A DNA stretch of 64,000 nucleotides from Kushneria aurantia DSM 21353 (GTDB lineage: Bacteria > Pseudomonadota > Gammaproteobacteria > Pseudomonadales > Halomonadaceae): the NCBI RefSeq assembly GCF_000382245.1, contig NZ_KB907869.1, forward strand, positions 62,001 to 126,000, read 5' to 3'. Each line of letters begins with the position of its first letter. Position 1 is the stretch's first letter. The translations under genes were made by a program, and so were the position numbers. Positions 44,527 to 63,592 of the stretch are shown here, piece by piece. Below the pieces are notes generated by a model. It was not told the origin of the DNA, ran no database searches, and saw only the letters and a program-made list of their open reading frames with translations.

Positions 44527-44597
44527 TCCAGCACACCTCCCGCAGGATCGATCGGGCTTCATCGCCAGGCGGCGTCGAAGCCCCGGAGTACAAGGTT

Positions 44598-45983: not shown

Positions 45984-45992
45984 GGAGGTAGC

Positions 45993-47705
45993 GTGGCAGA
46001 ATCGACGAAAATCGCCCGCGGGACCGGCCGGCTGATGCTCAGCGGACTGCTGCTGGCCGCCATGCCCGCCTGGAGTGCCAGCTTTGTTGACAGCGTGGCC
46101 GTACAGCGCAGCGACGTGGCGCGCCCGGCCTCGGCGCAGCAGAGTGACGGCCTGCCGGGTTCCGGAGTAGTGCCTGCCGGCAGCACCCGCCGTGGCGACG
46201 ACCTCCCGGCGATCACCCGCGGCAGCCGGATCAGCCTTGATCTGGACGAGAGTGCTCGGGATATCAGCTTGAGTGCCGATAATAGTGCAGGCCATAGCGG
46301 CGAAGCCCGTGTGCCCTCGTTGCCGGCACTGTTTGCGCTGGCGCTGGAGCACGACGCCTCGCTGACCAGCCAGCGCCTGCAGGCCGAGGCGCGCGGCCTT
46401 GAAGTGCCGCTGGCCTGGTCGCAGCTCAAGCCGAAGGTCGATGTCAGCGTGCAGCGTAGCTATACTCAGACCGACAACATCTACACTGCCGGCGAGGTGA
46501 GCAGCTGTCTCGAAAACCCTGAAACCGGCGAGCCGGTCGGCGGCGAGGACTTCGAGCGTCGCTGTGCCGGTGAATCCACCGACACCGTCAGCCAGATCTC
46601 GCTCTCCCAGCCGCTCTTCTCCATGGAGCGTTTTCGCCAGGTGCAGAAGGCCAACCAGCAGCGCGACGCTGCGCAGCTGCAGGTCGCGGTCGGCGAACGC
46701 GATCTTGCCCTGCAGACCGCCAAGGCCTGGCTCAGTGCCTTCTATCTCTCCCGCCGGGTCGATCTGCTGGAGAGCAAGCGCGAGTCCCTCGATCTGCAGG
46801 TGACTCAGGCGCAGCGCGCCTACGATCTCGGCATCGGCGATCGTATCGATCTGTTGGCTGCCCGGTCCAAGTTCGATACTACCCTGGCCGACATTGCCGC
46901 CGCCCGCAACGAGTACGACAACGCCCTCTCCACCCTGGAGCGGCTGACCGGCACCTCGCCGGATTTCAGCAACTTCGCCCTGCGCGACCTGCCCGGCGAG
47001 GGCTTCGCAACACCGCCGCCGCTGGAGACGCTGGAGGACTCCATCGTCAACAACGCCGACGTACTGCTCGCCGAGGCGCAGCAGGACGTCGCCCGCGCCG
47101 ACGTCTCGCTGCGTCAGGCCGGCTACTGGCCGGAAGTAAACCTCAACCTGTCGTACTCCGACCGCAACAGCAACGACCCCTACCGCGCAAGCGAGGATGC
47201 CCGCGCCGCTGTTCAGGCCAGCATGAACCTCTATGCCGGCGGCCGCACCAGCACCAGCGTGGAGCAGGGCACCCTGCTGCAGAGCGCTGCCATGGCGGAT
47301 GTCAGCAACGCCCGCCGCACCGCGCTTGAACAGCTGCGCCAGTACCACCGCAGCATCGGTGGCGACATCACCCGCTTGCAGGCGCTGGCGCAGTCGATCC
47401 GTTCCGGCGAGCTCTACCTGGAAGCCGCCGACAGGGGCGCGGCGCTCGGTCTACGCGACCTGGTGGACGTGCTCAACGCCCGCGCCGATCTCTACTCCCA
47501 GCGCATTCAGTACGTCGAGTCTTTTCGTCAGCTGCTGCTTGATCGCCTCAACATGCGCGCTGCCACTGGCGAACTGGGCACCGACGATATGCTCGCCGTG
47601 ATGCAGCAGGTGGGTGCCATCGTCGGCCCGCCAGATGGAGGCGATGCAGGCCTGCCTATGCGCGATGCACAAGCAAGTGGGGAGGATAGAGACACGCGAG
47701 GATAA
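45993..47705 (+). CDS. TolC-family outer-membrane channel of the type I system
   Basis: A 570-aa outer-membrane protein starting at GTG (45993) after GGAGGTA. A signal peptide (LMLSGLLLAAMPAWSA) is followed by about 80 residues of low-complexity extension before the first TolC repeat (VPSLPALFALALEHDASLTS). Helical hairpins such as LQVTQAQRAYDLGIGDRIDL and ALGLRDLVDVLNARADLYSQ mark both repeats. Two cysteines (in SSCLENPE and RRCAGES) lie in the extracellular-loop region and could form a disulfide. It is the third gene of the secretion operon and distinct from the housekeeping-type TolC at 22148. Confidence 0.92.
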   Translation: MAESTKIARGTGRLMLSGLLLAAMPAWSASFVDSVAVQRSDVARPASAQQSDGLPGSGVVPAGSTRRGDDLPAITRGSRISLDLDESARDISLSADNSAGHSGEARVPSLPALFALALEHDASLTSQRLQAEARGLEVPLAWSQLKPKVDVSVQRSYTQTDNIYTAGEVSSCLENPETGEPVGGEDFERRCAGESTDTVSQISLSQPLFSMERFRQVQKANQQRDAAQLQVAVGERDLALQTAKAWLSAFYLSRRVDLLESKRESLDLQVTQAQRAYDLGIGDRIDLLAARSKFDTTLADIAAARNEYDNALSTLERLTGTSPDFSNFALRDLPGEGFATPPPLETLEDSIVNNADVLLAEAQQDVARADVSLRQAGYWPEVNLNLSYSDRNSNDPYRASEDARAAVQASMNLYAGGRTSTSVEQGTLLQSAAMADVSNARRTALEQLRQYHRSIGGDITRLQALAQSIRSGELYLEAADRGAALGLRDLVDVLNARADLYSQRIQYVESFRQLLLDRLNMRAATGELGTDDMLAVMQQVGAIVGPPDGGDAGLPMRDAQASGEDRDTRG

Positions 47706-49788: not shown

Positions 49789-50616
49789 ATGGATAACCAC
49801 ACTTTGCGAGCAGCGGCCCCCTCCGGTGCGATGGAGCTATGGCGCTCGCGCGACCTGATTCAGCGCATGGTGCGTCGTGATATCACCTCGCGTTATCGCG
49901 GCTCGGTGCTCGGGCTTGCCTGGTCGATGCTCAACCCGCTCATCATGCTGGGGGTCTACACCTTCGTATTTACCGTGGTGTTTCGCGCGCGCTGGGGCAC
50001 CGGCGGCGATGCCCAGCACGCCGCCTTTGCCGTTAACCTGTTCGTCGGCATCATCGTTCACGGCGTACTGGCCGAAATGCTCAACCGTGCTCCCGGACTG
50101 GTGCTTGCCAACCAGAACTACGTCAAGAAAGTAATCTTTCCACTGCAGGTGCTCCCTCTGGTAACGCTGGGCAGTGCCCTGTTTCATGCTGCCACCAGTC
50201 TGGCCGTGCTGGTGGCAGCCGAGTTTCTGATTCTGGGTTACGTGCCGTTTACCGCGCTGCTGTTTCCGCTGGTGCTGGCACCGCTGCTGCTGGTGACGCT
50301 GGGTGCGGGCTGGCTGCTGGCTTCACTGGGCGTTTTCCTGCGCGACATCGGCCAGACCATGGGGCTGATTACCACCATGCTGCTGTTCCTCTCGCCGATC
50401 TTCTATCCGGCCTCGGCACTGCCGCCGGAGTTCAGGGTCATCATGACCCTGAATCCGCTCACCTTCATTATCGAACAGTCACGGCTGGTCATGATCGAAG
50501 GCGTACTGCCCAATTGGTGGGGGCTGCTGCTCTACGCCCTGGCCGCCTGGCTGTTTGCCTGGCTGGGCTTTACATGGTTCCAGAAAACCCGCAAGGGGTT
50601 TGCCGATGTCCTCTGA
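49789..50616 (+). CDS. O-antigen ABC exporter permease (Wzm type)
   Basis: A 275-aa ABC-2-type membrane protein with six hydrophobic segments. The N-terminal amphipathic part SRDLIQRMVRRDITSRYRGS and the first segment LGLAWSMLNPLIMLGVYTFV are characteristic of Wzm/TagG permeases; NQNYVKKVIFPLQVLP and IFYPASALPPEFRVIMTLNP are further family blocks. It forms the channel through which the finished undecaprenyl-linked polysaccharide crosses the inner membrane. The ATPase gene overlaps its end by 11 nt (50606-50616). Confidence 0.94.
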   Translation: MDNHTLRAAAPSGAMELWRSRDLIQRMVRRDITSRYRGSVLGLAWSMLNPLIMLGVYTFVFTVVFRARWGTGGDAQHAAFAVNLFVGIIVHGVLAEMLNRAPGLVLANQNYVKKVIFPLQVLPLVTLGSALFHAATSLAVLVAAEFLILGYVPFTALLFPLVLAPLLLVTLGAGWLLASLGVFLRDIGQTMGLITTMLLFLSPIFYPASALPPEFRVIMTLNPLTFIIEQSRLVMIEGVLPNWWGLLLYALAAWLFAWLGFTWFQKTRKGFADVL

Positions 50617-52006
50617 TCACCTCACCCCGGCAGAGCAAGGGCAACCTGTCATCTCGCTGCGCCACGTTGCCAAAAGCCACTTTATCTACGCCTCACCGCG
50701 CGAACGGCTCAAGCAGTTCATCGTGCCGCGCCTACAGCGCCGGCTGGGACTCGAACCGCGTCGCTACGGCCACGAATTTCGCGCCCTTCAGGATATCTCC
50801 TTCGATATCGGTCGCGGCGAGACGGTGGGTATCATCGGCCGTAACGGCTCGGGCAAGTCGACTCTGCTGCAGATCATCTGCGGTACCTTGAGTGCCAGCG
50901 GCGGTGAAATTCACACCAGCGGGCGAGTTGCCGCACTGTTGGAATTGGGCGCCGGCTTCGACCCGGAGTTCACCGGTCGCGAGAACGTCTATCTCAATGC
51001 CTCCATCCTGGGTCTCTCCCGTGAGGAGACGACCGCTCGCATGGACGACATTCTCGCCTTCGCCGATATCGGCGACTTTATCGACCAGCCGGTCAAGACC
51101 TACTCCAGTGGCATGTACGTGCGCCTCGCCTTCGCCGTCATCGCCCACGTCGATGCCGACGTTCTGGTGATCGATGAAGCTCTGGCGGTGGGCGATGCCT
51201 TCTTCGTGCAGAAGTGCATGCGTTTTCTGCGCCGCTTCATGAAAACCGGTACCGTACTCTTCGTCAGCCACGACACCTCCGCCGTGCTCAGCCTTTGTCA
51301 GCGTGCCATCTGGCTGGAACAGGGCTGCATTGTCGCGGATGACGAGCCCAAAACCGTTACCGACCAGTATTTAAAGGCTTTTTTCGAAGCCCAGCAGGGT
51401 ACTGGCAGTCGTGTCGAAAGTGGCGAAAGCCGATGCGAAGCGCCGCATGAAGACATGGCGCCGCGCGACATGCGCCAGGACCTGATCAACGCCAGCCCCT
51501 GGCGCAACGACATTCAGCTCTTCTCCTTCGACCCGGACGCCGAGCACTTCGGCAAGGGCGGTGCCACCATCGAATCGGTGCGCCTGACGGATCGCCATGG
51601 CCATCCGCTGGCCTGGGTGGTGGGGGGCGAGGAAGTGTGCCTTGAAGTCGTCGCCCGCATCGAGGACAACACCTTCCTTGAAAGCCCTATCCTCGGCTTT
51701 TATATCAAGGATCGCCTGGGGCAGACCCTGTTCGGTGACAACACCTATCTGAGCTACCATGACGCCCCGCCCAGGGGCGGCCCGGGCGATAGTCTCGACG
51801 CCATATTCGGCTTTCGTATGCCGACCTTGCCGCGCGGCGACTACAGCATCAGCGTGGCGATCGCCGAAGGCACCCAGGATGAGCACGTCCAGCACCACTG
51901 GATCCACGATGCGCTGATGTTCACGTCCCACTCCAGCAGCGTAACGCACGGCCTTGTCGGGCTGCCGATTCACGATATTCGTCTGAAGGTCAGGACACCA
52001 GCATGA
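50606..52006 (+). CDS. O-antigen ABC exporter ATPase with C-terminal glycan-binding domain (Wzt type)
   Basis: A 466-aa protein. The N-terminal ATPase has Walker A GRNGSGKS (about residue 77), the degenerate signature YSSGMYVRLAFAVIAH typical of polysaccharide exporters, Walker B VLVIDEALAVGD and switch His in VSHDTS. From about residue 300 follows a Wzt-type beta-sandwich (RLTDRHGHPLAWVVGGEEVC, GFYIKDRLGQTLFGDNTYL, RMPTLPRGDYSISVAIAEGT), which in other systems recognises a modified non-reducing end of the O-chain. The next gene starts with a methyltransferase domain, which could provide that terminal cap. The ATG at 50606 follows AAGGGG. The stop overlaps the next gene by 4 nt. Confidence 0.94.
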   Translation: MSSDHLTPAEQGQPVISLRHVAKSHFIYASPRERLKQFIVPRLQRRLGLEPRRYGHEFRALQDISFDIGRGETVGIIGRNGSGKSTLLQIICGTLSASGGEIHTSGRVAALLELGAGFDPEFTGRENVYLNASILGLSREETTARMDDILAFADIGDFIDQPVKTYSSGMYVRLAFAVIAHVDADVLVIDEALAVGDAFFVQKCMRFLRRFMKTGTVLFVSHDTSAVLSLCQRAIWLEQGCIVADDEPKTVTDQYLKAFFEAQQGTGSRVESGESRCEAPHEDMAPRDMRQDLINASPWRNDIQLFSFDPDAEHFGKGGATIESVRLTDRHGHPLAWVVGGEEVCLEVVARIEDNTFLESPILGFYIKDRLGQTLFGDNTYLSYHDAPPRGGPGDSLDAIFGFRMPTLPRGDYSISVAIAEGTQDEHVQHHWIHDALMFTSHSSSVTHGLVGLPIHDIRLKVRTPA

Positions 52007-55000
52007 GCGATAATAAAACAGATACCCTGCCGACCACCGGCGAGCGCTTTGTCCCCGAGCTGAGCGGTGACATGGCGCCCGAGCATCTTCATCGCTATCT
52101 TGTCGCCTGCCGGCACGTCGCCGGTAGAAAAGTGCTGGATATCGCCAGCGGTGAAGGCTATGGCAGTGCCATGCTGGCCGAACAGGCCGCTCATGTCATC
52201 GGTGTGGATATCGACGCCGACAGCGTGGCGCACGCGCTGAGACACTATCAGCGCGACAATCTCGAGTTCCGCCAGGGCGACTGCGCCGACATTCCGATAC
52301 CCGACGCAAGCGTTGATGTGGTGGTCAGTTTCGAAACTATCGAACACCACGATCAACACCGGGAAATGATGGCGGAAATCCGTCGAGTGCTGCGACCCCA
52401 CGGCCTGCTGGTAATTTCCAGCCCCGACAAGCGCGAATACAGTGACCGCAGCGGCTATCGCAACCCCTTTCATGTACATGAACTCTATCGCGATCAGTTC
52501 GAGGCGCTGCTGGGCGATCATTTTGCTCACTACCGTGTTCTTGGCCAGCGCATGATCTACGGCTCCGCACTTGTGGTCTCTTCGGAGAGTACATTCAGCG
52601 CCCTTGAAAACGGCGCCTTGCAAGCGCTCGATCGTCCCGTCTATCTGATCGCCCTTGCCAGCGACGTTGAGCTGCCGCCGATTGATGGCACCCTGTTGCT
52701 GCACGATATTCATGACAGTAGCGCCCTGCATGACGCTCGCCGCCGAGCGCGAGAGGACCTTCTTGGCAAGGAGAGCGAGATAGACCAGCTGTATCGGCAG
52801 CGTAGTGAATCCGAAGAGCGTATTGCCGGCCTTGAAAGCGAGCGGGACGCCCTGTGCGCTCAGCGCCGTGATCTTGAAGCCCACATCGCCGGACAGCAAA
52901 GGGAGCTCGAAGACACGCTTGGCGAGCATCGACAGCAGCAGGCCACCCTTGAAGATGAGAGACAGCGGCGTATGGACGCCGAAACACGGCTGGCCTCCTT
53001 GTGCGAGGAAAACGCCAGCCTGGGCGAGCAGATCGCTCACACTCAATGGCTGCATCAGGCCTACCTGTTACTGCACAGCCATCTCTATTCCCCGCAGTGG
53101 CTGCTGAAACGCCTGCTTAAGCAGCTGCTGCTGTGGCCCCGGCGGCGGCTGCAGGAGCAAGAAGACCGGCGCCGTATCGCCGCATCCGGTCTCTTTGATG
53201 CCGATTGGTATCGTCAGCACAATGTCGATATCGAACAGCGTGGTATCGACCCTCTGAGCCACTATCTGCGCCACGGCGGTTTCGAGGGGCGCAGTGCCTC
53301 CGAACGATTTGACAGCGCCGACTGGCTGCGTCGTTATCCTCACCTGATCGGTGACCATTATCACCCCCTGCTGCACTACCTCGACGTCCAGCAGGCGCCG
53401 AACGGGCAACAACAAGAGCCACACGAATTGCCATCGTCGTCGGCAGTCCGGTCCGATGACGCCGAACGCCAGCCGGCTATCAACGACCGCCTCTTTCAGC
53501 AGCTCTTTGCCGATGCCTCCTGCACCAGCAATGCCTTCGCCGAGCTGAGCGAGCATCACCTGCGCGGTGATACCCGTATTCGCGCCATAGCGCTCTATCT
53601 GCCGCAGTTCCATCCTATCGAAGAGAACAGCCGCTGGTGGGGCAAGGGCTTCACCGAATGGACCAACGTCACCAAGGCGGTGCCGCAGTTCGTCGGCCAC
53701 GAACAGCCCAAACTGCCTGCCGAGTTGGGCTTTTACGATCTGCGTCTGCCCGCCGTGCAGGAGCGCCAGGCTGAACTGGCCCACCAGCACGGTATCGAGG
53801 CCTTCTGCTTTCACTACTACTGGTTCAGTGGCCGAAAGCGCCTGCTCGAAACCCCCGTCGACAATTACGTTGCCAACCGTAATATCGACTTTCCTTTCTG
53901 CATCTGCTGGGCCAACGAAAACTGGACGCGCCGTTGGGACGGCCAGGAGAATGACGTTCTCATGGCCCAGTTGCATCGCCCCGAGGACGATCTCGAATTT
54001 ATCGAGGACCTTGCTCCGCTGCTGCGTGACCCGCGCTACCTGCGTGTCGACGGCAGGGCAGTGCTACTGGTCTATCGCGTCGATATCATCCCTGATGCCC
54101 CCGCCATGACCGATACATGGCGACGTTACTGCCGTGAGCAGGGAATCGGCGAGCTGCATCTGGTCGCCGCCCAGAGCTTCGGTATCGGCGACCCGCGCCC
54201 CTATGGTTTCGACGCCGCCATGGAGTTTCCGCCCCATGCTCTTCACGTCGGGCAGATCGAGGATCAACTCGACATCCTCAACCCCGACTACGCCGGCCGT
54301 GTTTTCGACTACCGTGAAGTCGTGAGCGCGCAACTGGCGCGTCCTGCCCCCGACTATACCCTCTATCGCGGCCTCTTCCCCGGCTGGGATAACGAAGCGC
54401 GCAAGCCCGGTCGTGGCCACGTTTTTCACTACGCCAGCCCCAACGCCTACCGACGCTGGCTGGCCGGCGCCTGCCGGCACGCGGACAGCCTTGGCGGCGA
54501 CAGCCGCCTTGTCTTTCTCAACGCCTGGAACGAATGGGCCGAGGGCGCTTACCTGGAACCGGATCGCCGCCATGGCTACGCCTCGCTGCAGGCCACCCAG
54601 GAAGTGCTGGCACAGTTTCCGCAGCCGCACGCCCTGCCCGTCGCCCTGAGTGAACTGGCTCCCGAGCGCCGCCACGATACCGCTGTGATTCTCCACCTCT
54701 ACTATCCCGAACTATGGGACGAGATCGCCCCTGCGCTTTCTCATCTGGAGGCTGGTTTTGACCTCTATATCTCGCTGCCTGAACAGGTTGAAGATGAGAC
54801 GCTGGCGCGCCTGCGTGTCGAGCAGCCCGCCGCTTATCTACTGCCTCTGCCCAATCGCGGGCGCGATGTGGCGCCCTTTATCGAAATTATGCGGCGCCTG
54901 CTACCCCTGGGCTACAAGAATGTTTGCAAGGTGCATGCCAAGAAAAGCGTTCACCGTGGTGACGGCGATATCTGGCGTGAAGAGATGTTCGACAGCCTGC

Positions 55001-55566
55001 TGGGCTCAACGGCACGCGTCGACGCCATCCTCGACGCCTTCGCACAGCATCCCGAAGTGGGACTGATCGGCCCCGCCGGTCACTGGCTGGACTACCAGAG
55101 CTTCTGGGGGATTGCCGAGGAGAGCCCCGAGCGTCTCGCCGCGCTACTGATGGCGCTGGGAGACATCAAGGGCGTTCCCGAGCGGCTTGGCTTCTTCGCC
55201 GGCTCCATGTTCTGGTGCCGCCCGCAGGCAGTGGCAGGGCTGATTGAAGGGCTTCACTGGCAGGACTTCGAGGCGGAGCTGGGTCAACGGGATGGCGCCC
55301 TGGGGCACATCGTCGAGCGCGCTCTTGGTCGCGCCGTCGAGCTGGCCGGCTACAGCGCCACCGACACCCTTCATCTCGACGACCCCAGTGGCATGCCCGC
55401 GCCGGCCAACGTCTACCGCTATGCCGTCAACTGCCCGCCAGCGGGAGAGGTGCCGCCTCGTCCGGCCGACATCAGCCGCAGGGGGATGCAGGCCTTGCGC
55501 CAGCTGGCGCGTAAAAGCACTCTGGCGCGCCGACTGCATCGCGAAATTCGTGCCCGACTGGACTGA
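52003..55566 (+). CDS. Methyltransferase - coiled coil - repeat module - WbsX - RgpF multidomain glycan protein
   Basis: A 1187-aa cytoplasmic protein with five recognisable parts. (1) A SAM methyltransferase (about 10-215; motif I VLDIASGEGYGSAM). (2) A coiled coil (about 245-352), which in chain-length regulators acts as a ruler. (3) About residues 396-465, two copies of the short module shared with the S-layer-like protein and protease: FDADWYRQHNVDIEQRG then IDPLSHYLRHGGFEGR. (4) A WbsX-type domain (about 526-870; IRAIALYLPQFHPIEENSRW, WGKGFTEWTNVTKAVPQF, CWANENWTRRWDG). (5) An RgpF-type rhamnan-synthesis domain (about 888-1160; HLYYPELWDEI, LPNRGRDVAPFIEIMRR, KVHAKKS). It overlaps the Wzt gene by 4 nt. 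It may extend and cap the O-chain, like WbdD/WbdA pairs but in one chain; that is inference. Confidence 0.85.
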   Translation: MSDNKTDTLPTTGERFVPELSGDMAPEHLHRYLVACRHVAGRKVLDIASGEGYGSAMLAEQAAHVIGVDIDADSVAHALRHYQRDNLEFRQGDCADIPIPDASVDVVVSFETIEHHDQHREMMAEIRRVLRPHGLLVISSPDKREYSDRSGYRNPFHVHELYRDQFEALLGDHFAHYRVLGQRMIYGSALVVSSESTFSALENGALQALDRPVYLIALASDVELPPIDGTLLLHDIHDSSALHDARRRAREDLLGKESEIDQLYRQRSESEERIAGLESERDALCAQRRDLEAHIAGQQRELEDTLGEHRQQQATLEDERQRRMDAETRLASLCEENASLGEQIAHTQWLHQAYLLLHSHLYSPQWLLKRLLKQLLLWPRRRLQEQEDRRRIAASGLFDADWYRQHNVDIEQRGIDPLSHYLRHGGFEGRSASERFDSADWLRRYPHLIGDHYHPLLHYLDVQQAPNGQQQEPHELPSSSAVRSDDAERQPAINDRLFQQLFADASCTSNAFAELSEHHLRGDTRIRAIALYLPQFHPIEENSRWWGKGFTEWTNVTKAVPQFVGHEQPKLPAELGFYDLRLPAVQERQAELAHQHGIEAFCFHYYWFSGRKRLLETPVDNYVANRNIDFPFCICWANENWTRRWDGQENDVLMAQLHRPEDDLEFIEDLAPLLRDPRYLRVDGRAVLLVYRVDIIPDAPAMTDTWRRYCREQGIGELHLVAAQSFGIGDPRPYGFDAAMEFPPHALHVGQIEDQLDILNPDYAGRVFDYREVVSAQLARPAPDYTLYRGLFPGWDNEARKPGRGHVFHYASPNAYRRWLAGACRHADSLGGDSRLVFLNAWNEWAEGAYLEPDRRHGYASLQATQEVLAQFPQPHALPVALSELAPERRHDTAVILHLYYPELWDEIAPALSHLEAGFDLYISLPEQVEDETLARLRVEQPAAYLLPLPNRGRDVAPFIEIMRRLLPLGYKNVCKVHAKKSVHRGDGDIWREEMFDSLLGSTARVDAILDAFAQHPEVGLIGPAGHWLDYQSFWGIAEESPERLAALLMALGDIKGVPERLGFFAGSMFWCRPQAVAGLIEGLHWQDFEAELGQRDGALGHIVERALGRAVELAGYSATDTLHLDDPSGMPAPANVYRYAVNCPPAGEVPPRPADISRRGMQALRQLARKSTLARRLHREIRARLD

Positions 55567-55620
55567 AGGCCAATATAAGGGCGCCTGGCCAATTGCCCAG
55601 GGGCGACGTTTTTATTGACC

Positions 55621-55650
55621 GGGGAAAACGCGTCAGTTTTCGCCCTTTTT
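55621..55650 (+). terminator. Probable terminator of the glycan operon
   Basis: GGGGAAAAC (55621-55629) pairs with GTTTTCGCCC (55636-55645) with one bulged base, followed by TTTTT. It is 55 nt after the stop of the multidomain gene and separates the glycan run from the S-layer-like gene. Confidence 0.75.
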
Positions 55651-56155
55651 CCGGATGGCAATTGTTGTTGCGGCAAGGGGGGGGATCTTGTGCGCGCATA
55701 TAAAGAACACTGTTCTTTTTTTAAAAGCCAGTATTATCAATGGGGTAGAGAAGGTTGCGGCGTTTTCTGGCGCGCCGGTTCCCCGAAAGCTCTGAAAATA
55801 GCGGTTTTTCCCTCTTTGCTTTCCACTGTCTGGCACGGTCTCGGTGCTTGCAAAGCGAAGGTGGAGGCTCTAGCATCCCTGATCAGGTGATGTCAGCCAT
55901 ACGAAATTGATTAGCCGGATAGTGCTGAAACAATTAGTTTGATGTCTCACTCAGGGGGCGTGCTGATCGCTTCATTGCCGCGGGGCAGAGCGCGCAGGCG
56001 CTACCGCAACGATCGGCGCTGATCGCGGGGAAAGCCCTGATTTGTCCTCCACCAGCGTCGTGGTGGAGGCGGCGCAGGGAAATCACCCAACTGGATCCTG
56101 GCGTGGCGGGTGTCGCGCCCAATGCAATAAGTGCACAAGCAAGGAGATTGCCATA
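55651..56155 (+). promoter_or_regulatory. Long leader of the S-layer-like gene with two hairpins
   Basis: This 505-bp region carries no convincing gene; the open frames across it lack family features. It is A+T-richer up to about 55930. A 7-bp dyad AAAGAAC/GTTCTTT (55702-55718, 3-nt centre) is followed by a T-run and may be an operator or an extra terminator. Near the gene, CCTCCACCA/TGGTGGAGG (56046-56054 with 56061-56069, 6-nt loop) makes a perfect 9-bp stem about 87 nt before the ATG. AAGGAG precedes the start by 9 nt. Long structured 5' leaders are typical of highly expressed S-layer mRNAs, where they stabilise the message. I could not identify promoter hexamers. Confidence 0.5.
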
Positions 56156-59100
56156 ATGGCAACGATTAACTTCAATACCAGTTACTACCTTCAGGATAAG
56201 CTGGAACAGCTTCAGAACGGCGAAGATGCGGCCCAGTACTCCGACTGGACCACTCAGGACGTCGAGGAGGCCTTCTCGGCTGCCAATCTGACGCCCGAGC
56301 AGCACTATGAGCAGTTCGGTTCGGTTGAAGGTCTGAATCCCAGCCCGCAGTTCGACACCGACGCCTACCTGCAGGAGAAACTGGCTCAACTGCAGGACCA
56401 GGATGCTACTCAGGCCAACGGCGAGCCCTACGAAACCGCCGCTGATGTCCTCAATGCCTTCCGCGATGCTGGCCTTTCGCCGCTGGAGCACTATAACGAG
56501 TACGGCCAGGAAGAAGGTCTGACAGCGCCCGCGGTTCCCGGTAGTGGTGGAGACGACGGTGGTGAAGGTCCCGATGTGCCGACACCGGAATATACTGTCA
56601 ACTTCGACTCTTCCGAGAAGAGCGGCAGCACCGTTACCGTCGGCGAAGATGGTAATCTCGTGCTGACAGACGTTTCTCAGGGCGACACTGTTAGTCACAT
56701 CGGCAAGGCGCAGTACGACGAAACCGGGCAGTATCCGACCAGCTCCGACTTCCGTTTCACCCTGAGCAATCAGCTCAACTATGGGAATACTGAAGGTGGT
56801 GATACTTTCCAGGGCACTTTCCTCAGCCCGCTGCTGACCCCCACCGGCGGCATTGGTGACGGCTCCATTCTCGATCTGCGTTTCGCCGACCGTCTGGCGC
56901 CGGCCGATGATCCCTCGCAGACACTCAGCAACACCCAGGTCAACTACTTCGAGTTCACCTATAACGGTACCGAGTACCAGGTCAACGACGACAACACCAA
57001 CGGTCTGCTGGGTCAGGCGCGTGACTACGACGCCCTGCTGGAAGCCATCGAAACCGGCATCGAAAACCTTCAGGAAGCCAACCCGGAGCTTTCCGGCCTG
57101 AGCGTTACCCGCGGCTCCACCTTCAGCGTCAACCAGTACGACCGCGAAACCGATAACCTCACCGGTGATGATGTGCAGGGTATCTCCATCGTGCTGAGCG
57201 CTCGTCAAGGCGATCTGGGTGGCTTCAGCGCCAACGTCACCAGCGTTGATGAAGGCGGCGTCGACTCCTACGCTCGTGCCTTCGACCAGACCACTACCGG
57301 CGTTGAGGGTCTGATCCAGACCACCCTCGACCTCAGTAACATCGGCTACGGCTCCCAGGGCGGCTCCGTTAACATCGCCGGTGAGTCCAACTCCAACGTT
57401 GGCGTCGAGAAGTTCAACGTCACCACCGAGAGTGGCGTTTGGCTGACCGAACTCAGCTCTACCGACACTGCCAACAACTCGGGCTTCGACCACCTCAAGG
57501 TTGTTGAGGTCAGTGGCAGTGGCTACTTCCGCGTCGGCCAGCAGAGCCAGAGCTGGGGCCACAGCAACAACCTGGGTGAGTACTTCACGCAAAATGCCCA
57601 GACCGCCGACTGGGTTAGCCCACTGGTAGCCGATACGACTGGCGGCGCTCAGGGCCTGACTAACGTTCAGGACCTCGACCTGACCGGTATCACCGGCAGC
57701 AGCGCCTCCTCGGCGATCAATGCTGCGATCGATAACCGCGTAATCGACCGCGACCTCAACCTGACCGACGTCAACGGCAATCCGGCACAGGACAACGTGG
57801 TGTACAACTACGACCTGACCGGCGGTGACGACGTGCTCAACATGGGTGTCGATGGCAGCGTGCTGGCCCAGTCCGACTTCGAGCTGGAAATCAGCACCGG
57901 TGCCGGCGCTGACGTTGTGCATCTCAGCAATGGCATCACTACCTCGGCTCAGCTGGTTAACCAGCAGCTCAATGACAACATCACCATCGACACCGGCGCC
58001 GGTAACGACCGCGTCTGGAGTGAAGGTGCAGGCAACGCCACCATCACCACAGGTTCCGGTGACGACCTGGTGCTGGCCGATAACAGCGGTGATCAGGCTG
58101 GAGTCGGCACTAACAGCGGTCGTGCCCAGTTCGTCTTCAACAATGCGACTCAGAACATCAATGATCTCGAGTCCAACAGCGATGTTGACCTGTCCAACGG
58201 CGCCAACGGCACTGCACAGAGCTTCACTATCAGCGGCCTGACCGGTGCTGCCACCATGGCCGTTCGGGTGAACTTCCAGGGCTTTGAAGCCGTTACCAAC
58301 ATCAACATTGCCAGCGGAAGCGTCAACGGCGACGGTGAAGCCAGCATTACTGCACTGCAAATCAATCAGGCGATCAAGTCGGCCATCAATGGTAACGATG
58401 TTCTGAAAGAGCTGCTGCAGGCGCAGGACGGCAACGGCAACTCGTTGATCGTTAATTCCCGCATCGACGGTGGTATGGAACTGAGCGATCTGAATATCAG
58501 CTTCAGCGGTCAGAATTCCGACGGTGAAGGTACGATTTCCTTCCCCGATCTCCTGAGCAATAACGGTACTGAAGACGATAACTCTGACGGCGTCTACGAA
58601 ACCCAGTTTGGTCAGGACACTGTTGGTGGTACTGATACTGATGTCACTGGCGCTGACAGTACCGTCGAGAGCGACAATACCATCAATGTCGGCACCGGCA
58701 CTGATGAGATCGTGCTCGGCACTGGCGCGAACAGCAACGATACTGTGGCATTCACCGACTACAACAATGGTTTCAACACCATTGTGAACTTCACTGACGG
58801 TGAGGTTGTGGGTAACGGTGCCGATGCAAACGATGGCGACATTCTCGACTTCACCAGCTATCTCGGTGGCAGCTCGAGCGGTCTGACCACCACTGCTGGC
58901 GCCCTGAACGATGATCAGATTGCACTGGTCAACAACTTCACCTCCACTGGTTCTGGTGACAATGCCATCAGCTTTGCTGACCTGAACGCCAGCAATCTGC
59001 TGCAAGCGCTTAACAGTGATTCCGGAACCTTCTCTGGTTTCTCTGCAGTCTCGGGTGATGCGGGCAGCAATGCTACCAACTACATCCTGCTGGTTGAGAG

Positions 59101-59236
59101 CGGCGGCACTGCCGGCGAGCACAAGGCGTTCCATCTGACGTCCAACGCGGAGTCGACAGATTTCGCATCTGCTCAACTGATCGGCACGATTGACTTCGGT
59201 GTTGATCAGAATTTCGATGCCACCAATTTTGCCTGA
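56156..59236 (+). CDS. S-layer-like / RTX-type surface protein, 1026 aa
   Basis: A very acidic protein without cysteine and with few Lys/Arg, rich in Asn, Asp, Gly, Ser and Thr, in the S-layer pattern. There is no signal peptide. Residues about 1-125 hold two copies of a module (NTSYYLQDKLEQLQ ... HYEQFGSVEGL and DTDAYLQEKLAQLQ ... HYNEYGQEEGL); an acidic Gly/Asp linker (about 128-145) follows. Degenerate RTX calcium motifs occur at about 555 (TGGDDVLNMG), 612 (TGAGNDRVWS), 632 (TGSGDDLVLA) and 845 (GTGTDEIVLG). The C-terminal end (IGTIDFGVDQNFDATNFA) is uncharged-hydrophobic as in type I secretion signals. The start at 56156 follows AAGGAG. Probably exported by the nearby ABC/HlyD/TolC system and assembled on the O-chain. 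It is the largest gene of the locus and looks highly expressed. Confidence 0.85.
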   Translation: MATINFNTSYYLQDKLEQLQNGEDAAQYSDWTTQDVEEAFSAANLTPEQHYEQFGSVEGLNPSPQFDTDAYLQEKLAQLQDQDATQANGEPYETAADVLNAFRDAGLSPLEHYNEYGQEEGLTAPAVPGSGGDDGGEGPDVPTPEYTVNFDSSEKSGSTVTVGEDGNLVLTDVSQGDTVSHIGKAQYDETGQYPTSSDFRFTLSNQLNYGNTEGGDTFQGTFLSPLLTPTGGIGDGSILDLRFADRLAPADDPSQTLSNTQVNYFEFTYNGTEYQVNDDNTNGLLGQARDYDALLEAIETGIENLQEANPELSGLSVTRGSTFSVNQYDRETDNLTGDDVQGISIVLSARQGDLGGFSANVTSVDEGGVDSYARAFDQTTTGVEGLIQTTLDLSNIGYGSQGGSVNIAGESNSNVGVEKFNVTTESGVWLTELSSTDTANNSGFDHLKVVEVSGSGYFRVGQQSQSWGHSNNLGEYFTQNAQTADWVSPLVADTTGGAQGLTNVQDLDLTGITGSSASSAINAAIDNRVIDRDLNLTDVNGNPAQDNVVYNYDLTGGDDVLNMGVDGSVLAQSDFELEISTGAGADVVHLSNGITTSAQLVNQQLNDNITIDTGAGNDRVWSEGAGNATITTGSGDDLVLADNSGDQAGVGTNSGRAQFVFNNATQNINDLESNSDVDLSNGANGTAQSFTISGLTGAATMAVRVNFQGFEAVTNINIASGSVNGDGEASITALQINQAIKSAINGNDVLKELLQAQDGNGNSLIVNSRIDGGMELSDLNISFSGQNSDGEGTISFPDLLSNNGTEDDNSDGVYETQFGQDTVGGTDTDVTGADSTVESDNTINVGTGTDEIVLGTGANSNDTVAFTDYNNGFNTIVNFTDGEVVGNGADANDGDILDFTSYLGGSSSGLTTTAGALNDDQIALVNNFTSTGSGDNAISFADLNASNLLQALNSDSGTFSGFSAVSGDAGSNATNYILLVESGGTAGEHKAFHLTSNAESTDFASAQLIGTIDFGVDQNFDATNFA

Positions 59237-59270
59237 TCTCCGTGTTTAGGTAATGAGCCTGGCTCGACAG

Positions 59271-59299
59271 AACCCCCCGCCCAAGGCGGGGGGTTTTTC
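59271..59299 (+). terminator. Strong terminator after the S-layer-like gene
   Basis: The stem AACCCCCCGCC (59271-59281) pairs with GGCGGGGGGTT (59285-59295) around a CAA loop and runs into a TTTTT tail. It lies about 35 nt after the stop, so the S-layer-like gene is probably its own transcription unit. Confidence 0.95.
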
Positions 59300-59353
59300 A
59301 TTTTTATCTTCTGCACAATGACCCCATCACTGCGCTTATCGGTTTGAACCCCC

Positions 59354-60151
59354 ATGCCCCGCTATATCGCACTCAGTTCACTGCGCCATGCCGAGCACGG
59401 CTGGCTGGCAAACCCGGATTACACTTTCGCCGCTGAGCGGCCACTGGCCGAGCTGGTGGCCGAGGAGATGCCACACGCATTGCCCACCCTGCCGCTCGCC
59501 TTCCTGCCGGAGGGCGGGGAGTGGCGGCTGGTATCGCTGCTCTCTCTCGATGCCCGCCATAACCTCTTCGTTCACCCCGATGGCCGCTGGCTGGGGGGCT
59601 ATATTCCTGCCGCCCTGCGCAGCTATCCTTTCGCCCTGCTGCCGGTCGAGAGGAGTGCAAAGAAGGCGCTCTGCTTCGACGAGGAGAGCGGCCTGCTGCT
59701 CGAGCACGCCGAGGGCGGGCAGCGCTTTTTTACCCCGGAGGGTGAACTCAACGGCTCGACGTATCAGGTAATGAATTTTCTGCAGCAGCTTGATCAGCGC
59801 CGCCGCACCACTCGCCGCGCGGTGACGCGGCTCGCCGAGGCGGAGCTGATCGTGCCCTGGGAAATCAGCCTGGATGGCGAGGAGGGCCAGCGGCAGGCGG
59901 TCGAGGGACTTTACAGGCTCGACGAGGCGGCGCTGCGCGCCCTGCCGGGCGAGAAGCTGAGCCAGCTGGCGGACGGCGGTGCGCTCTCTATCGCCTATGC
60001 CCAGCTCTTTTCCCAGCACCGCCTGCCGGGGCTCTCAAGGCTGGTGGCGCTGCAGAAAAAGCTCGGCGAACAGCAGCAGAGCGCGGTGGCGGATGTCGAG
60101 TCGCTGATGAACGAGGGCGACGACGACCTGACCTTCGATTTCGATAGCTGA
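59354..60151 (+). CDS. SapC-family protein
   Basis: A 265-aa soluble protein of the SapC family, named after a gene next to the S-layer secretion genes of Campylobacter fetus. Family blocks: LPLAFLPEGGEWRLVSLLSL, NLFVHPDGRWLGGYIPAALR, SYPFALLPVERSAKKALCFD, and the helical C-terminal half around NFLQQLDQRRRTTRRAVTRL and VPWEISLDG. There is no signal peptide. The biochemical role is unknown in the family; it is commonly found beside secreted repeat proteins and glycan-modifying genes. Its place directly after the S-layer-like gene supports a joint role. Confidence 0.88.
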   Translation: MPRYIALSSLRHAEHGWLANPDYTFAAERPLAELVAEEMPHALPTLPLAFLPEGGEWRLVSLLSLDARHNLFVHPDGRWLGGYIPAALRSYPFALLPVERSAKKALCFDEESGLLLEHAEGGQRFFTPEGELNGSTYQVMNFLQQLDQRRRTTRRAVTRLAEAELIVPWEISLDGEEGQRQAVEGLYRLDEAALRALPGEKLSQLADGGALSIAYAQLFSQHRLPGLSRLVALQKKLGEQQQSAVADVESLMNEGDDDLTFDFDS

Positions 60152-60232
60152 ACCGCCACTGGATGGCGCTATGAAGGTGTCGTCATGACGGCTAGACTAC
60201 CCGCTTTTATGACAGCGAAAGGACAATATCCC

Positions 60233-60445
60233 ATGGCACAGCAGGACAATACCGTCACCATCAATGGCAAACCCTACGTATGGAGCGAGCTCAGCGAAGC
60301 GGCGCGCGATCAGTTGACCAACCTGCGCGCCTGCGACGAGGAGATCGCCCGCCTCAAGCGTCAGCAGGCGATCGCCCAGGCAGCGCGTATGACCTACTCC
60401 CATCTGCTCGAACGTGAGTTGCCGGCTTCGGCCGAAAAGCACTGA
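60233..60445 (+). CDS. DUF6447-type small protein
   Basis: A 70-aa protein starting MAQQDNTVTINGKPYVWSEL. The pattern VTINGKxY-x4-LS-x2-A-x-DQL-x-NLRACDEEIARLKRQQAIAQ and then AARMTYSHLLERELP is that of the small DUF6447 family. It is mostly helical and probably cytosolic. I know no function, but the family is met beside SapC-type genes, as here (82 bp apart). The start at 60233 follows AAAGGA; two upstream in-frame ATGs are less likely. Confidence 0.75.
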   Translation: MAQQDNTVTINGKPYVWSELSEAARDQLTNLRACDEEIARLKRQQAIAQAARMTYSHLLERELPASAEKH

Positions 60446-60567
60446 TCCGTTTGCCGGGTCAAGCCAGCCCTGATACGCCAATGGTCCGCTGACTGGGTGG
60501 CGGCGTGGGTGCTGTGGCCCGGGTGGGGGCAGCTGTTGGCGAACTTTATACGGGGCAGGGAGGGGCG

Positions 60568-61944
60568 ATGACGTCAAGGGGAGTATCCGATCTGCGGCTG
60601 CGTTTGCTGCTGGGACTGGTGGCACTGTGCTGTCTCGCGACGGTGGGCTGGGTGCAGGCGCACCTGCCGCTCAACGGTGAGGATTACGCCTTTGCCCGGC
60701 CTTTTGAGGTGTGGCAGTGGGGGGCGCGTTTCGACTGGATCGTGTTCAAGATCGGCGTGCAGTTCAGCGACTGGAACGCCCGCTTTGGCGAGCAGCTGGC
60801 GATCATCTGGCTGAATATGCCGAGCGTGGTGTTCTGGCTGCTCGCGCTGGGCGCCTTTGTGGCCCTCAATCTGGTCATGGCGGCGCTACCCGAGCCCGGC
60901 CCCGGCACCCGCGGTAGTGCCTCGCGGGATGCCTTTTGGGTGCGCCTGGGTTGGTCGCTGGGCCTGTTGTTTCTGCTCTGGCCCGGTTTTGAGCTGTTTT
61001 TCTGGAAGACCATTATCGCTGGCTATCTGACCCCCATGGTGCTCTGTCTGCTGACGATACTGCCCTTTACTACTGCCGGCCGGCTGAGAAACATGACGTC
61101 GAGCGGCAGACGGCTGACGGCGGGCGCCGTGGTTGCCTTTCTGGCCGGCTGGTCGTTTGAAAACGTACCGGTGGCGCTGGTGGTCTATATGCTGGTCAGC
61201 TGGTTGCTGCTGCCCGACCGCTTTCGCCAGTGGCGTGCGCTGCTGCCACTGGGTGCGCTGTTAGCGGGCTGGACGATGCTGATGCTGGTGCCATCAACAA
61301 TGCACCGCATTCACTACTATCGCGAGATTTTCGGTATTACCACCACCGGGCCGGCCTACTATCTGGATCGTGCCGGGCAGGTGACCGCCACTTTTTTCGA
61401 CACCGCCTGGCCGCTGTTTCTGTTTGCCGTTATGGCGCTGATCGGGCTGGTGCTGCTGCATCGTACCGGGCGGATGCGTCGCGATGTCCGCTTTTGGCTG
61501 TTGATGCTACCTGCCCTGCTGACGGTCGGCTCGGTCGCCTCTGCGCCCTATACCGAGCCCCGCTCCTTCATGTTTGCCTGGGTCATCATGTTTGCTTTCG
61601 TGATCGAGGGCGCGCGGCTGGCCTGGCACTATCGGCCATCGCTGCGCTGGTTACTGGTGTTGGGGCTTTGCGGCGCGCTGTTCACCCAGGGGGTGGTGCT
61701 GGGCACCTATCAGCGCGTCGATGAAATTTTCGACAAGCGTATCGCCTATATCCAGTCTCCGGCGAACCAGGCGGTCTGCAGCAATGCCACCGAGCAGCGG
61801 CTGGCGATCGCACCTATCGAGGTGGATATTCCCTATCGCCTGTTCAACAACCGCGATGGTTGGGTGACGGGTAATCTGGATGCCATTGGCACCTACTACG
61901 GATGTCAACTGCGCCTTGCAGAAGAGGGTAGCGGCAGTGGCTGA
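60568..61944 (+). CDS. Polytopic membrane protein, Gtr/DUF6056-like
   Basis: A 458-aa inner-membrane protein with about 10-11 hydrophobic segments and a periplasmic tail of about 70 residues. After the first segment comes LPLNGEDYAFARPFEVWQWG, where a Gly-x-Asp/Glu-Asp-Tyr pattern is shared with GtrII-type O-antigen glucosyltransferases and DUF6056 proteins; the periplasmic tail has two cysteines (AVCSNATEQ and YYGCQLRL). Such enzymes add sugars to O-antigen on the periplasmic side using a lipid-linked donor, which would fit here, but the call rests on topology and one motif. The ATG at 60568 follows GGGAGGGGCG. Confidence 0.7.
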   Translation: MTSRGVSDLRLRLLLGLVALCCLATVGWVQAHLPLNGEDYAFARPFEVWQWGARFDWIVFKIGVQFSDWNARFGEQLAIIWLNMPSVVFWLLALGAFVALNLVMAALPEPGPGTRGSASRDAFWVRLGWSLGLLFLLWPGFELFFWKTIIAGYLTPMVLCLLTILPFTTAGRLRNMTSSGRRLTAGAVVAFLAGWSFENVPVALVVYMLVSWLLLPDRFRQWRALLPLGALLAGWTMLMLVPSTMHRIHYYREIFGITTTGPAYYLDRAGQVTATFFDTAWPLFLFAVMALIGLVLLHRTGRMRRDVRFWLLMLPALLTVGSVASAPYTEPRSFMFAWVIMFAFVIEGARLAWHYRPSLRWLLVLGLCGALFTQGVVLGTYQRVDEIFDKRIAYIQSPANQAVCSNATEQRLAIAPIEVDIPYRLFNNRDGWVTGNLDAIGTYYGCQLRLAEEGSGSG

Positions 61945-62071
61945 GCGTTTTCCCCAGCAGAATGTGAGGCCATTGCCTAAAGCATGGCGTCCCGAGGTCG
62001 ATAAAAAGACGGTAGTGAAATATCCTGTGTATTGTCGGACATTCTGAAACCTGCCTCCAGCGAGACGCCGC

Positions 62072-63592
62072 ATGCCTACCATTGCCAGCGACACCGGCAG
62101 CAATGTCTCCCGCCCAGGGGATGGGTATGACGGGGTAGGGCGGGTCAGCACCGCTACGGCAGTTGGCAGCGGTACGCTGCTGGCCGGCGGCCAGGCGGTA
62201 TTGACAGCCGCCCATGTAGTGGAAGGCGATGGCCCGATTCGCGTCGCTTTCGATAGTACGGCGGGGCGTCTCTGGATGTCGGTGGAAAGCATGCGTATCC
62301 ACAGCGGATACAATGACGGCAACTTCTCCCACGACCTGGCGCTACTGTGGCTAAACGAAGAAGCGCCGCTCTTTATTCCCCGCTATGAGCTTTACCGCGA
62401 CAACGATGAACTCGCCAGGATCGCTACCATTGTGGGTTACGGTGCCACCGGCAGTGGAACCAGTGGCTACATCCGCGGGGAAGGTGATCAACGCAGCCTG
62501 GTGCACAATCGCATCGATCTGTTCAACAGCGATCTTTCCCTTTCGAAGGCTCCCGCCGGTTCTCAACTGCTGGCCGATTTCGACGATGGTAGCTGGCGAT
62601 ATGACACCATTGGCAGGCTCGGCGGGGTGCAGAACACCGGGCTGGGCGATGCCGAGGGAGCCATTGCCCCGGGAGACAGCGGTGGCCCGGCCTTTATCGA
62701 TGGCCTGCTGGCCGGCGTTGCCAGCTACATCGCCACCTTTACCTATGCCGGGGAGCGTCTGGATATCAATAATGAAACCGACAGCAGCTTCGGTGAGGTC
62801 ATGGGCTGGCAGCGGGTCAGTCATTACCAGAGTTGGATTGACGATACGTTGGCCGGATTTTCCGGAAGCTCCGTGGACGATGAGGACGGCACGGCTATCG
62901 ACATGATCGGTAGTGGCGGTGACGATTTGCTGCTGGCGGATAACGGCAGCGGCACCATGAGCGGGCTTGGAGGCAATGACCGTTTTTATGTCGGTTCCGG
63001 CGACCTTCGTATCGACGGTGGCGCCGGTACCGATGTGGTACGTGTCGACCTGCCGCTTGCAGCGGTTGTCGTCGGCGAACAGAATAACGGCGTCATTCGG
63101 CTTGAATCCGCTGCATTCGGTAGCGACAGGCTCGTCAATGTCGAACTGCTGCGTTTTGCCGACCAGGTGGTATTGACCCGGGAGCCCACCCACCACGCCA
63201 GTCAGCAGACGCTTTTCGATCCGGCCTTCTATCTGGCCGTCAACCCTGACGTGGCGCGGGCGGGCGTCGATCCGCTGACCCACTATCAACAGTGGGGCGC
63301 CGCCGAGGGACGCGATCCCAATGCCCTGTTCGACGAACGTTTCTATCGCCACGAGAACCCGGATGTCGATGCCGCCATTTCCCGTGGTGAGTTGAACAGT
63401 GGCTGGGAGCACTACAGTGCCTGGGGATGGCAGGAGAGTCGCCTGCCGTCGGCCTGGATGGATACCGAAGCCTATCTTCAGGACTATCCGGATATCGCGG
63501 CAGCCGGTGTTAACCCTTTCGAGCACTATTTGCGCTGGGGCATTGATGAAGGTCGTACTATCAGTGCCATCGATGGTGAATTGTGGGGCTAA
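62072..63592 (+). CDS. Trypsin-like serine protease with RTX motifs and C-terminal repeat modules
   Basis: A 506-aa protein. Residues about 20-260 are a trypsin/S1 fold with the triad His48 (LTAAHVVE), Asp88 (SHDLALLWL) and Ser203 (APGDSGGPAF). Residues about 275-325 hold RTX-type motifs (GSGGDDLLLADNGS, GLGGNDRFYVG, GGAGTDVVRVD). The rest has three copies of a module: FDPAFYLAVNPDVARAG-VDPLTHYQQWGAAEGR, then FDERFYRHENPDVDAA..., then MDTEAYLQDYPDIAAAG-VNPFEHYLRWGIDEGR. There is no signal peptide, so export by the nearby type I system is likely. It may trim, shed or mature surface proteins. It stands alone at the right end of the locus, with a weak ribosome-binding site before 62072. Confidence 0.88.
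   Translation: MPTIASDTGSNVSRPGDGYDGVGRVSTATAVGSGTLLAGGQAVLTAAHVVEGDGPIRVAFDSTAGRLWMSVESMRIHSGYNDGNFSHDLALLWLNEEAPLFIPRYELYRDNDELARIATIVGYGATGSGTSGYIRGEGDQRSLVHNRIDLFNSDLSLSKAPAGSQLLADFDDGSWRYDTIGRLGGVQNTGLGDAEGAIAPGDSGGPAFIDGLLAGVASYIATFTYAGERLDINNETDSSFGEVMGWQRVSHYQSWIDDTLAGFSGSSVDDEDGTAIDMIGSGGDDLLLADNGSGTMSGLGGNDRFYVGSGDLRIDGGAGTDVVRVDLPLAAVVVGEQNNGVIRLESAAFGSDRLVNVELLRFADQVVLTREPTHHASQQTLFDPAFYLAVNPDVARAGVDPLTHYQQWGAAEGRDPNALFDERFYRHENPDVDAAISRGELNSGWEHYSAWGWQESRLPSAWMDTEAYLQDYPDIAAAGVNPFEHYLRWGIDEGRTISAIDGELWG

Follow-up and report, generated by a model that had tools for sequence, protein, structure and literature searches.

A short module, predicted to be helical, of an S-layer-like protein, a protease and a glycan-synthesis protein of Kushneria aurantia, and its exchange with DUF4214

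The anchoring of a surface layer (S-layer) on lipopolysaccharide (LPS) has been solved in atomic detail for RsaA of Caulobacter crescentus (PMC6978808, PMC12175726). In RsaA the O-antigen is bound, with Ca2+, by a helical domain at the N-terminus, and the lattice domain is separate (PMC6978808). A DUF4214 protein of Halomonas has had its N-terminus modelled on the Caulobacter S-layer protein (PMC11970703). Here, we examine a short module that recurs in three proteins encoded in a 64-kb window (the whole stretch of DNA analysed, positions 62001-126000 of contig C8) of the 3.75-Mb genome of Kushneria aurantia DSM 21353: an S-layer-like protein of 1026 amino acids (aa), a trypsin-like protease and a 1187-aa protein of glycan synthesis. 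An earlier sequence-only reading had suggested that this module may bind the O-chain, both to anchor the exported proteins and to hold the growing chain in the synthase. We consider it probable, though well short of certain, that the module is a glycan-docking one and that two long copies anchor the S-layer-like protein on O-polysaccharide; the O-chain as the single ligand of all its carriers appears too narrow.

The three proteins and their seven copies are as follows.

52003..55566, + strand: 1187-aa protein with methyltransferase, WbsX (PF14307) and RgpF (PF05045) domains by Pfam, two modules in between
53194..53304, + strand: copy GT-1, short form, aa 398-434 of the 1187-aa protein (E 4e-18, the copy being itself a member of the seven-copy profile)
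53308..53415, + strand: copy GT-2, degenerate short form, aa 436-471 of the 1187-aa protein
56156..59236, + strand: 1026-aa S-layer-like protein, two N-terminal modules; body 37% identical to DUF4214-bearing proteins at the same locus in relatives
56171..56347, + strand: copy SL-1, long form, aa 6-64, at the N-terminus of the 1026-aa protein; modelled
56351..56533, + strand: copy SL-2, long form, aa 66-126 of the 1026-aa protein; modelled
62072..63592, + strand: 506-aa trypsin-like protein (PF00089) with weak RTX-type matches (Pfam/NCBIfam scan) and three modules
63215..63325, + strand: copy PR-1, short form, aa 382-418, at the C-terminus of the protease; modelled
63329..63454, + strand: copy PR-2, aa 420-461 of the protease; modelled
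63458..63568, + strand: copy PR-3, aa 463-499 of the protease; modelled

All seven copies stand where the sequence-only reading had put them, and they are confirmed as real. A profile built from the protease copies only was compared with the 326 six-frame open reading frames (ORFs) of the window, with reversed and shuffled ORFs as controls. It ranked the protease first, the glycan-synthesis protein second (E 1.8e-7) and the S-layer-like protein third (2.2e-7), while the next ORF scored 0.96, the best reversed ORF 0.11 and the best shuffled ORF 0.97; a chance origin of the copies was rejected on these scores. The profile of the S-layer-like copies found the protease at 1e-8 and did not find the glycan-synthesis protein (1.4; best shuffled ORF 0.048), and that of the two GT copies found the protease at 8.8e-8 and did not find the S-layer-like protein (0.26; best shuffled ORF 0.056). 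Because each of these two profiles finds the protease and neither finds the other's protein, the short and the long form are connected through the protease copies; a profile-profile comparison aligned the last 23 columns of the two forms at E 1.8e-6. The unit had been described as one of about 45-60 aa that closes with EGR. Its shared motif was recovered, but its limits and its ending were not uniform: the short form of the protease and GT copies measures 36-42 aa as cut (roughly FDxxxYLxxxPDVxxAGxxPLxHYxxxGxxEGR), the long-form copies of the 1026-aa protein measure 59 and 61 aa, have a middle enlarged by about 20 residues and bear EGL in place of EGR, and the degenerate GT-2 copy is devoid of G..EGR.

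The S-layer-like gene lies in the following neighbourhood.

42754..47705, + strand: three genes fitting a type I secretion set (ABC transporter, HlyD-type fusion protein, outer-membrane efflux protein)
49789..50616, + strand: Wzm-like ABC-2 permease of an O-chain exporter (PF01061)
50624..52006, + strand: Wzt, ATPase with the Wzt C-terminal domain (PF14524)
59354..60151, + strand: SapC (PF07277, by Pfam), the first gene downstream of the S-layer-like gene

This proximity to a type I secretion set (42754-47705) and to Wzm/Wzt (49789-52006) is a gene neighbourhood of the RsaA kind. The position of the gene between wzt and sapC is conserved. Samples of 151 genomes of the family and 398 of the phylum were surveyed (G numbers denote sampled genomes, G000 being that of K. 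aurantia itself, and L numbers fetched loci). Matches to Wzt_C occur in 37 and to SapC in 55 of the 151 family genomes, and both occur in all nine genomes that have the long form (Fisher 1.4e-6 for the long form with Wzt_C, a value which, like all our association p-values, ignores the relatedness of the genomes). In each of the nine, our own included, a long-form match is 2.6-9 kb from the Wzt_C match, SapC lies within ~6 kb of a long-form match in the same locus, and a module-bearing S-layer-like frame stands between wzt and sapC; in G023 this frame has only 137 aa, and a module-bearing frame of 677 aa is found past SapC. Thirteen module-bearing coat-like proteins of these nine genomes, that of the window included, have similar N-termini in 78 of 78 pairs and similar bodies in 16 of 78 (E ≤ 1e-3), as would be expected of an anchor that stays the same while the bodies vary.

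Thirteen other relatives with Wzt_C have a different N-terminus at the same place. Sixteen regions around SapC were fetched, and 13 of them, all from genomes with Wzt_C and without the long form, contain 15 S-layer-like ORFs, chosen by eye, that start with a DUF4214-type region; PF13946 was confirmed in all 10 of those scanned, L356 among them. In two further regions (G145 and G098:C17) the protein adjoining SapC carries short modules, and in that of G078, where only one edge-cut ORF passed the composition filter, no module was found. The body of the window protein matches that of the G141 protein with 36.6% identity over 863 columns (E 1e-110) and that of the G010 protein with 36.9% over 867 columns (E 9e-105). 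Across the two types, 31 of 210 pairs of bodies match at E ≤ 1e-5, many of them partially, and they fall into at least three body groups. The N-termini, by contrast, are similar in 91 of 91 module-module pairs and in 103 of 105 DUF4214-type pairs, and in none of the 210 pairs of module with DUF4214-type. Since homologous bodies thus bear unlike N-termini, the module occupies the DUF4214 slot on S-layer-like bodies, and a module that replaces another domain on the coat protein of relatives is therefore probably a docking piece for surface sugar chains. The likeness of the two is one of position: DUF4214 (PF13946) is also a small N-terminal region of S-layer-like proteins at this locus and also occurs on one form of a prophage protein. 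Unlike the module, it is without a match in the scanned window proteins or elsewhere in the K. aurantia genome.

We propose that the two N-terminal long modules would attach the S-layer-like protein to the O-polysaccharide for which the nearby Wzm/Wzt is the exporter, and that the protein itself is probably exported through the type I system close by, at 42754-47705. A SapC homologue beside a coat-like protein, in a neighbourhood of genes for type I secretion and LPS, resembles the arrangement of the SapA/SapC surface-array system of Campylobacter fetus. The module is not known to be the anchor of SapA, and a literature search found no paper on the LPS-binding part of SapA. Across the family SapC adjoins both module-type and DUF4214-type coat-like genes, and therefore it may serve the export or assembly of the coat whatever its anchor.

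A more direct comparison with RsaA is afforded by a relative. The module-bearing L171 protein of G088 has a body that matches RsaA to its last residue (E 4.8e-55), and its first ~190 aa, which contain the modules, correspond in position to the O-antigen-binding helical domain of RsaA; this body has no detectable relation to that of the window protein. Similarly, L344 of G001 matches the C-terminal end of RsaA at ~1e-5. The exchange with DUF4214, the locus and this RsaA-type body argue for an anchoring on LPS. As in RsaA, a helical stretch at the N-terminus of the S-layer protein would be the anchor. However, RsaA has one domain of ~240 residues where here there is a string of modules of 36-61 residues, and the module has no match to the solved chains by sequence, nor has either of its models a Foldseek match to them at E ≤ 0.001.

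The models were made with AlphaFold2, from the three protease modules with 56 relatives for the short form and from the two long modules with six relatives for the long form. The short form was predicted with a mean pLDDT of 91.4 and a pTM of 0.83 as three helices per module; the long form (pLDDT 82.9, pTM 0.52) begins with a longer helix, after which its helices correspond to those of the short form. The predictions thus agree in their helices for the protease and the S-layer-like protein, the two of the three proteins that were modelled. Against the PDB, where so small a repeat may escape Foldseek, the short-form model gave 0 matches at E ≤ 10 and the long-form model a best E of 1.5 with a TM score of 0.16; by sequence, the seven-copy profile met solved structures at chance level (best E 1.1). 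Among predicted viral structures the short-form model had 30 matches at E ≤ 10, three of them at E ≤ 0.001, with TM scores of at most 0.38, and 11 of the 30 are named giant-virus glycosyltransferases, counting one O-fucosyltransferase; predicted glycosyltransferases of, among others, Hyperionvirus and Fadolivirus rank with the best structural matches of the module, weak though these are. Family databases were equally silent. No match to Pfam or NCBIfam (E ≤ 1) covers the modules of the window proteins among the matches listed; no family models the module among the Pfam matches of 45 and 24 module proteins, nor among the NCBIfam matches listed for the 45 (best 25 of 83); and no paper describing the motif or its combination of contexts was found in the open-access literature. 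The module is thus unnamed in the databases searched, small and, by prediction, helical.

Over the whole genome, the seven-copy profile (E ≤ 1, the weakest accepted copy at 6.4e-4) detects 21 copies, the seven of the window and 14 more. Of these 14, three are in a phytase-like RTX protein of 569 aa encoded just past the window, and eight are in another sugar-gene cluster (C34), distributed over a 752-aa protein whose methyltransferase match is below threshold, a GT2+GT4 protein of 966 aa and a GT2 protein of 531 aa; the remaining three, of the long form, are on a 432-aa prophage protein discussed below. A gene for a DUF6056 membrane protein (PF19528) precedes a module-bearing enzyme of the secreted type twice in succession, at 60505-61944 before the protease and at L021:4342-5865 before the phytase-like protein. 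A methyltransferase match with a long stretch that looks by eye like a coiled coil and with modules likewise has two instances in this genome, 52003-55566 and L022:9643-11901; the methyltransferase match is weak in the latter, and the WbsX/RgpF fusion occurs only in the former. This combination resembles the chain-terminating ruler WbdD.

The short form is widely spread. It was found in 52 of the 151 family genomes (E ≤ 1e-4) and in 55 of the 398 phylum genomes, so that a purely family-specific module was rejected; the long form, in contrast, occurs in nine of the 151, and among the 398 its only match is K. aurantia itself. A cross-species scan with a single strict pattern yielded 363 relatives, the best of which were retained as 78 loci with titles that include Proteobacteria, Cyanobacteria, Acidobacteria, Planctomycetes, Verrucomicrobia, Chloroflexi and actinobacteria. 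Partner domains were tallied for 71 module ORFs from 60 phylum loci by overlapping Pfam counts, a local phmmer count of glycosyltransferase hosts (29/71) being too insensitive. Where the modules lie in the first half of the ORF (45 scanned), the partners were GT2 (23), glycosyltransferase group 1 families (17 and 16), RgpF (6), WbsX (5), WsaF (4) and others; where they lie in the second half (24 scanned), RTX repeats (3), GT2 (3), sulfotransferase (2), subtilase (1) and others. A glycosyltransferase domain is therefore the commonest partner in this sample, and secreted-type proteins are fewer. In such glycosyltransferases the module may hold the polysaccharide acceptor, like a carbohydrate-binding module (CBM) on a processive enzyme; the sequence-only reading's growing chain held in the synthase would fit these frequent fusions. 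The proposed likeness to CBMs and to Wzt_C is that of a polysaccharide held near an enzyme or exporter, but the module is a small helical repeat and no CBM family is among the Pfam matches of module proteins. On secreted enzymes such as the protease and the phytase-like protein, it would keep the enzyme at the cell surface.

The module is not found mainly in genomes that lack O-chain genes, an outcome that would have spoken against the O-chain. Wzt_C or RgpF is present in 43 of the 52 short-form genomes versus 19 of the 99 others, an association that is not independent, because RgpF proteins can themselves bear modules; among genomes devoid of RgpF, Wzt_C is found in 11 of 20 short-form genomes versus 17 of 97 others (p 0.0009, relatedness again ignored). 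One could also suppose that the module is a neutral mobile spacer or folding repeat that has no ligand and spreads by recombination between repeats. Short repeats do recombine easily, and the number of copies per ORF varies from 1 to 20 (L112 and L234 are ORFs with 17 and 20 copies in one chain). Such a history is most improbable, however, in view of the non-random position of the module, in the N-terminal slot of S-layer-like genes where relatives have DUF4214, of a prophage protein that likewise shows either module or DUF4214, and of core residues conserved across relatives from several phyla.

The prophages offer a second view of this exchange. Long-form modules occur on prophage genes in five of the nine long-form genomes and in 0 of the 142 others; they are carried by the K. 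aurantia prophage, by relatives of it in G001 and G125, and by tape-measure proteins, two in G104 and one each in G088 and G125. Four prophage tape-measure proteins (L181-L184) have long modules near the C-terminal end, and each has tape-measure matches in PHROGs. The K. aurantia prophage (C2) encodes the 432-aa protein, with three long-form copies and with neighbours that include a gene with tail-fibre matches; the protein also occurs on an IMG/VR viral contig (L072), PHROGs gave it neither a match nor a function, and a tblastn search with its first 250 aa against 50,697 phage records found none. A marker of this prophage is present in six of the 151 genomes. The number of modules in the 432-aa protein family is three in G000, two for the relative in G001 and one for that in G125, and the S-layer-like proteins of all three hosts also bear modules. 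In G008 both the prophage protein and the host S-layer-like protein are of the DUF4214 type, and a relative of the 432-aa protein (L342:6952-8058) has a C-terminal Pfam match to DUF4214 (E 2.2e-10) and, by eye, a DUF4214-like N-terminus. The G014 prophage protein has no similarity to module or DUF4214, and that genome is also without Wzt_C, SapC or module matches. For host and phage in the six genomes, the anchor classes are therefore module with module in three, DUF4214 with DUF4214 in one, a host without Wzt_C, SapC or module matches (G014) with none seen in one, a module host (G023) with none seen in one, and a mismatched class in 0. It may be, although we advance this only as a tentative and somewhat doubtful extension, that a single interchangeable set of LPS-docking domains serves both coat proteins and prophages, the anchor class of the prophage being that of its host and the phage gripping the same O-chain.

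This co-occurrence of phage and host also suits a homotypic protein-protein module, with enzymes docking on the modules of the coat, glycosyltransferases forming complexes and phages binding the coat's modules. Such a module would explain the tandem copies, the mixed classes of protein and the phage-host pattern as well as a glycan would, and L166, a 196-aa protein that consists mostly of modules, lies beside the S-layer-like gene of one relative. Yet we hold it to be unlikely: 43 of the 52 short-form genomes are without the long form, so that a coat partner is not general (the survey covered long-form coat proteins, and G145 has a short-form one), and it leaves unexplained both the module in the anchor slot of a protein of the RsaA type, in which anchor and lattice domain are separate, and the exchange with DUF4214 next to wzt.

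Phage proteins of other kinds raise a further question about the ligand. For 48 chosen viral or prophage module proteins, the PHROGs matches listed (best 25 of 67 families) include a virion structural family in nine, DNA-ejection families in six and four, and tape-measure families in up to five each. The L314 viral-contig relative has matches in 10 Rhizobium and Sulfitobacter phage records, with pieces outside the module in seven Sulfitobacter records; L287 had none among the phage records. Tape-measure and DNA-ejection proteins are inside the virion until infection and act at the cell wall and membranes. On glycan docking, the modules of the virion-region, DNA-ejection-family and tape-measure proteins would hold the same surface glycan during infection. 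Such carriers, as well as the occurrence of the module in phyla that are not known to have LPS, would suit instead a ligand such as peptidoglycan, an undecaprenol-linked sugar, capsule or another envelope glycan or glycolipid. We think this quite improbable as a replacement for the O-chain, since a Wzt_C exporter is the constant neighbour of the long-form S-layer-like gene, it is O-antigen that anchors a body of the RsaA type in the case that has been solved, and cytosolic glycosyltransferases do not meet peptidoglycan.

Several observations weigh against the anchoring reading or narrow it. The 1026-aa protein has no PDB match below E 0.01, RsaA included, and no lattice domain homologous to that of RsaA was found in it. 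The link of DUF4214 to RsaA comes from the published model of another Halomonas protein; a Caulobacter control genome has no PF13946 match, a profile of the DUF4214-type N-termini found no RsaA chain, and the two whole DUF4214-type proteins searched had no PDB match, so that these sequence comparisons do not connect DUF4214 with RsaA. The nine other genomes of the same genus in the sample are without short form, long form, Wzt_C and SapC. The prophage copy in G023 has no similarity to module or DUF4214, though the S-layer-like genes of its host are of the module type, and for the tape-measure and ejection proteins, inside the virion, there is not obviously a need to bind the O-chain. Finally, the module stands beside domains other than glycosyltransferases and in contigs titled Chloroflexi and actinobacteria, phyla that are not known to have LPS, and therefore it is not specific to the O-chain.

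The idea of glycan binding thus stands in part. The locus and the exchange with DUF4214 favour the anchoring of the exported S-layer-like protein, but the O-chain as the one ligand is too narrow for a module that also occurs in phage structural, DNA-ejection-family, tape-measure and sulfotransferase-match proteins and in contigs from such phyla, and that is matched, weakly, by predicted giant-virus glycosyltransferases; the wide spread argues against a ligand that is only the O-chain. That the module binds carbohydrate at all is suggested by the exchange and by its fusion partners, and the fusions with glycosyltransferases and the phages fit a glycan but could also fit a protein partner. From the copies, their predicted helical fold, the conserved locus and the exchange seen in S-layer-like bodies as well as in one prophage protein, we infer that the ligand is a glycan, namely the O-chain for the S-layer-like protein, that a coat is formed, and that the synthase and phage copies have corresponding roles. 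If this is true, the module would be a second anchor, unrelated to that of RsaA and easily recognised, so that anchors could be read from sequence. It would also furnish small domains with which specific polysaccharides could be read or labelled, and through a single ligand it would tie the anchoring of S-layers to the synthesis of polysaccharide and to the entry of phages.

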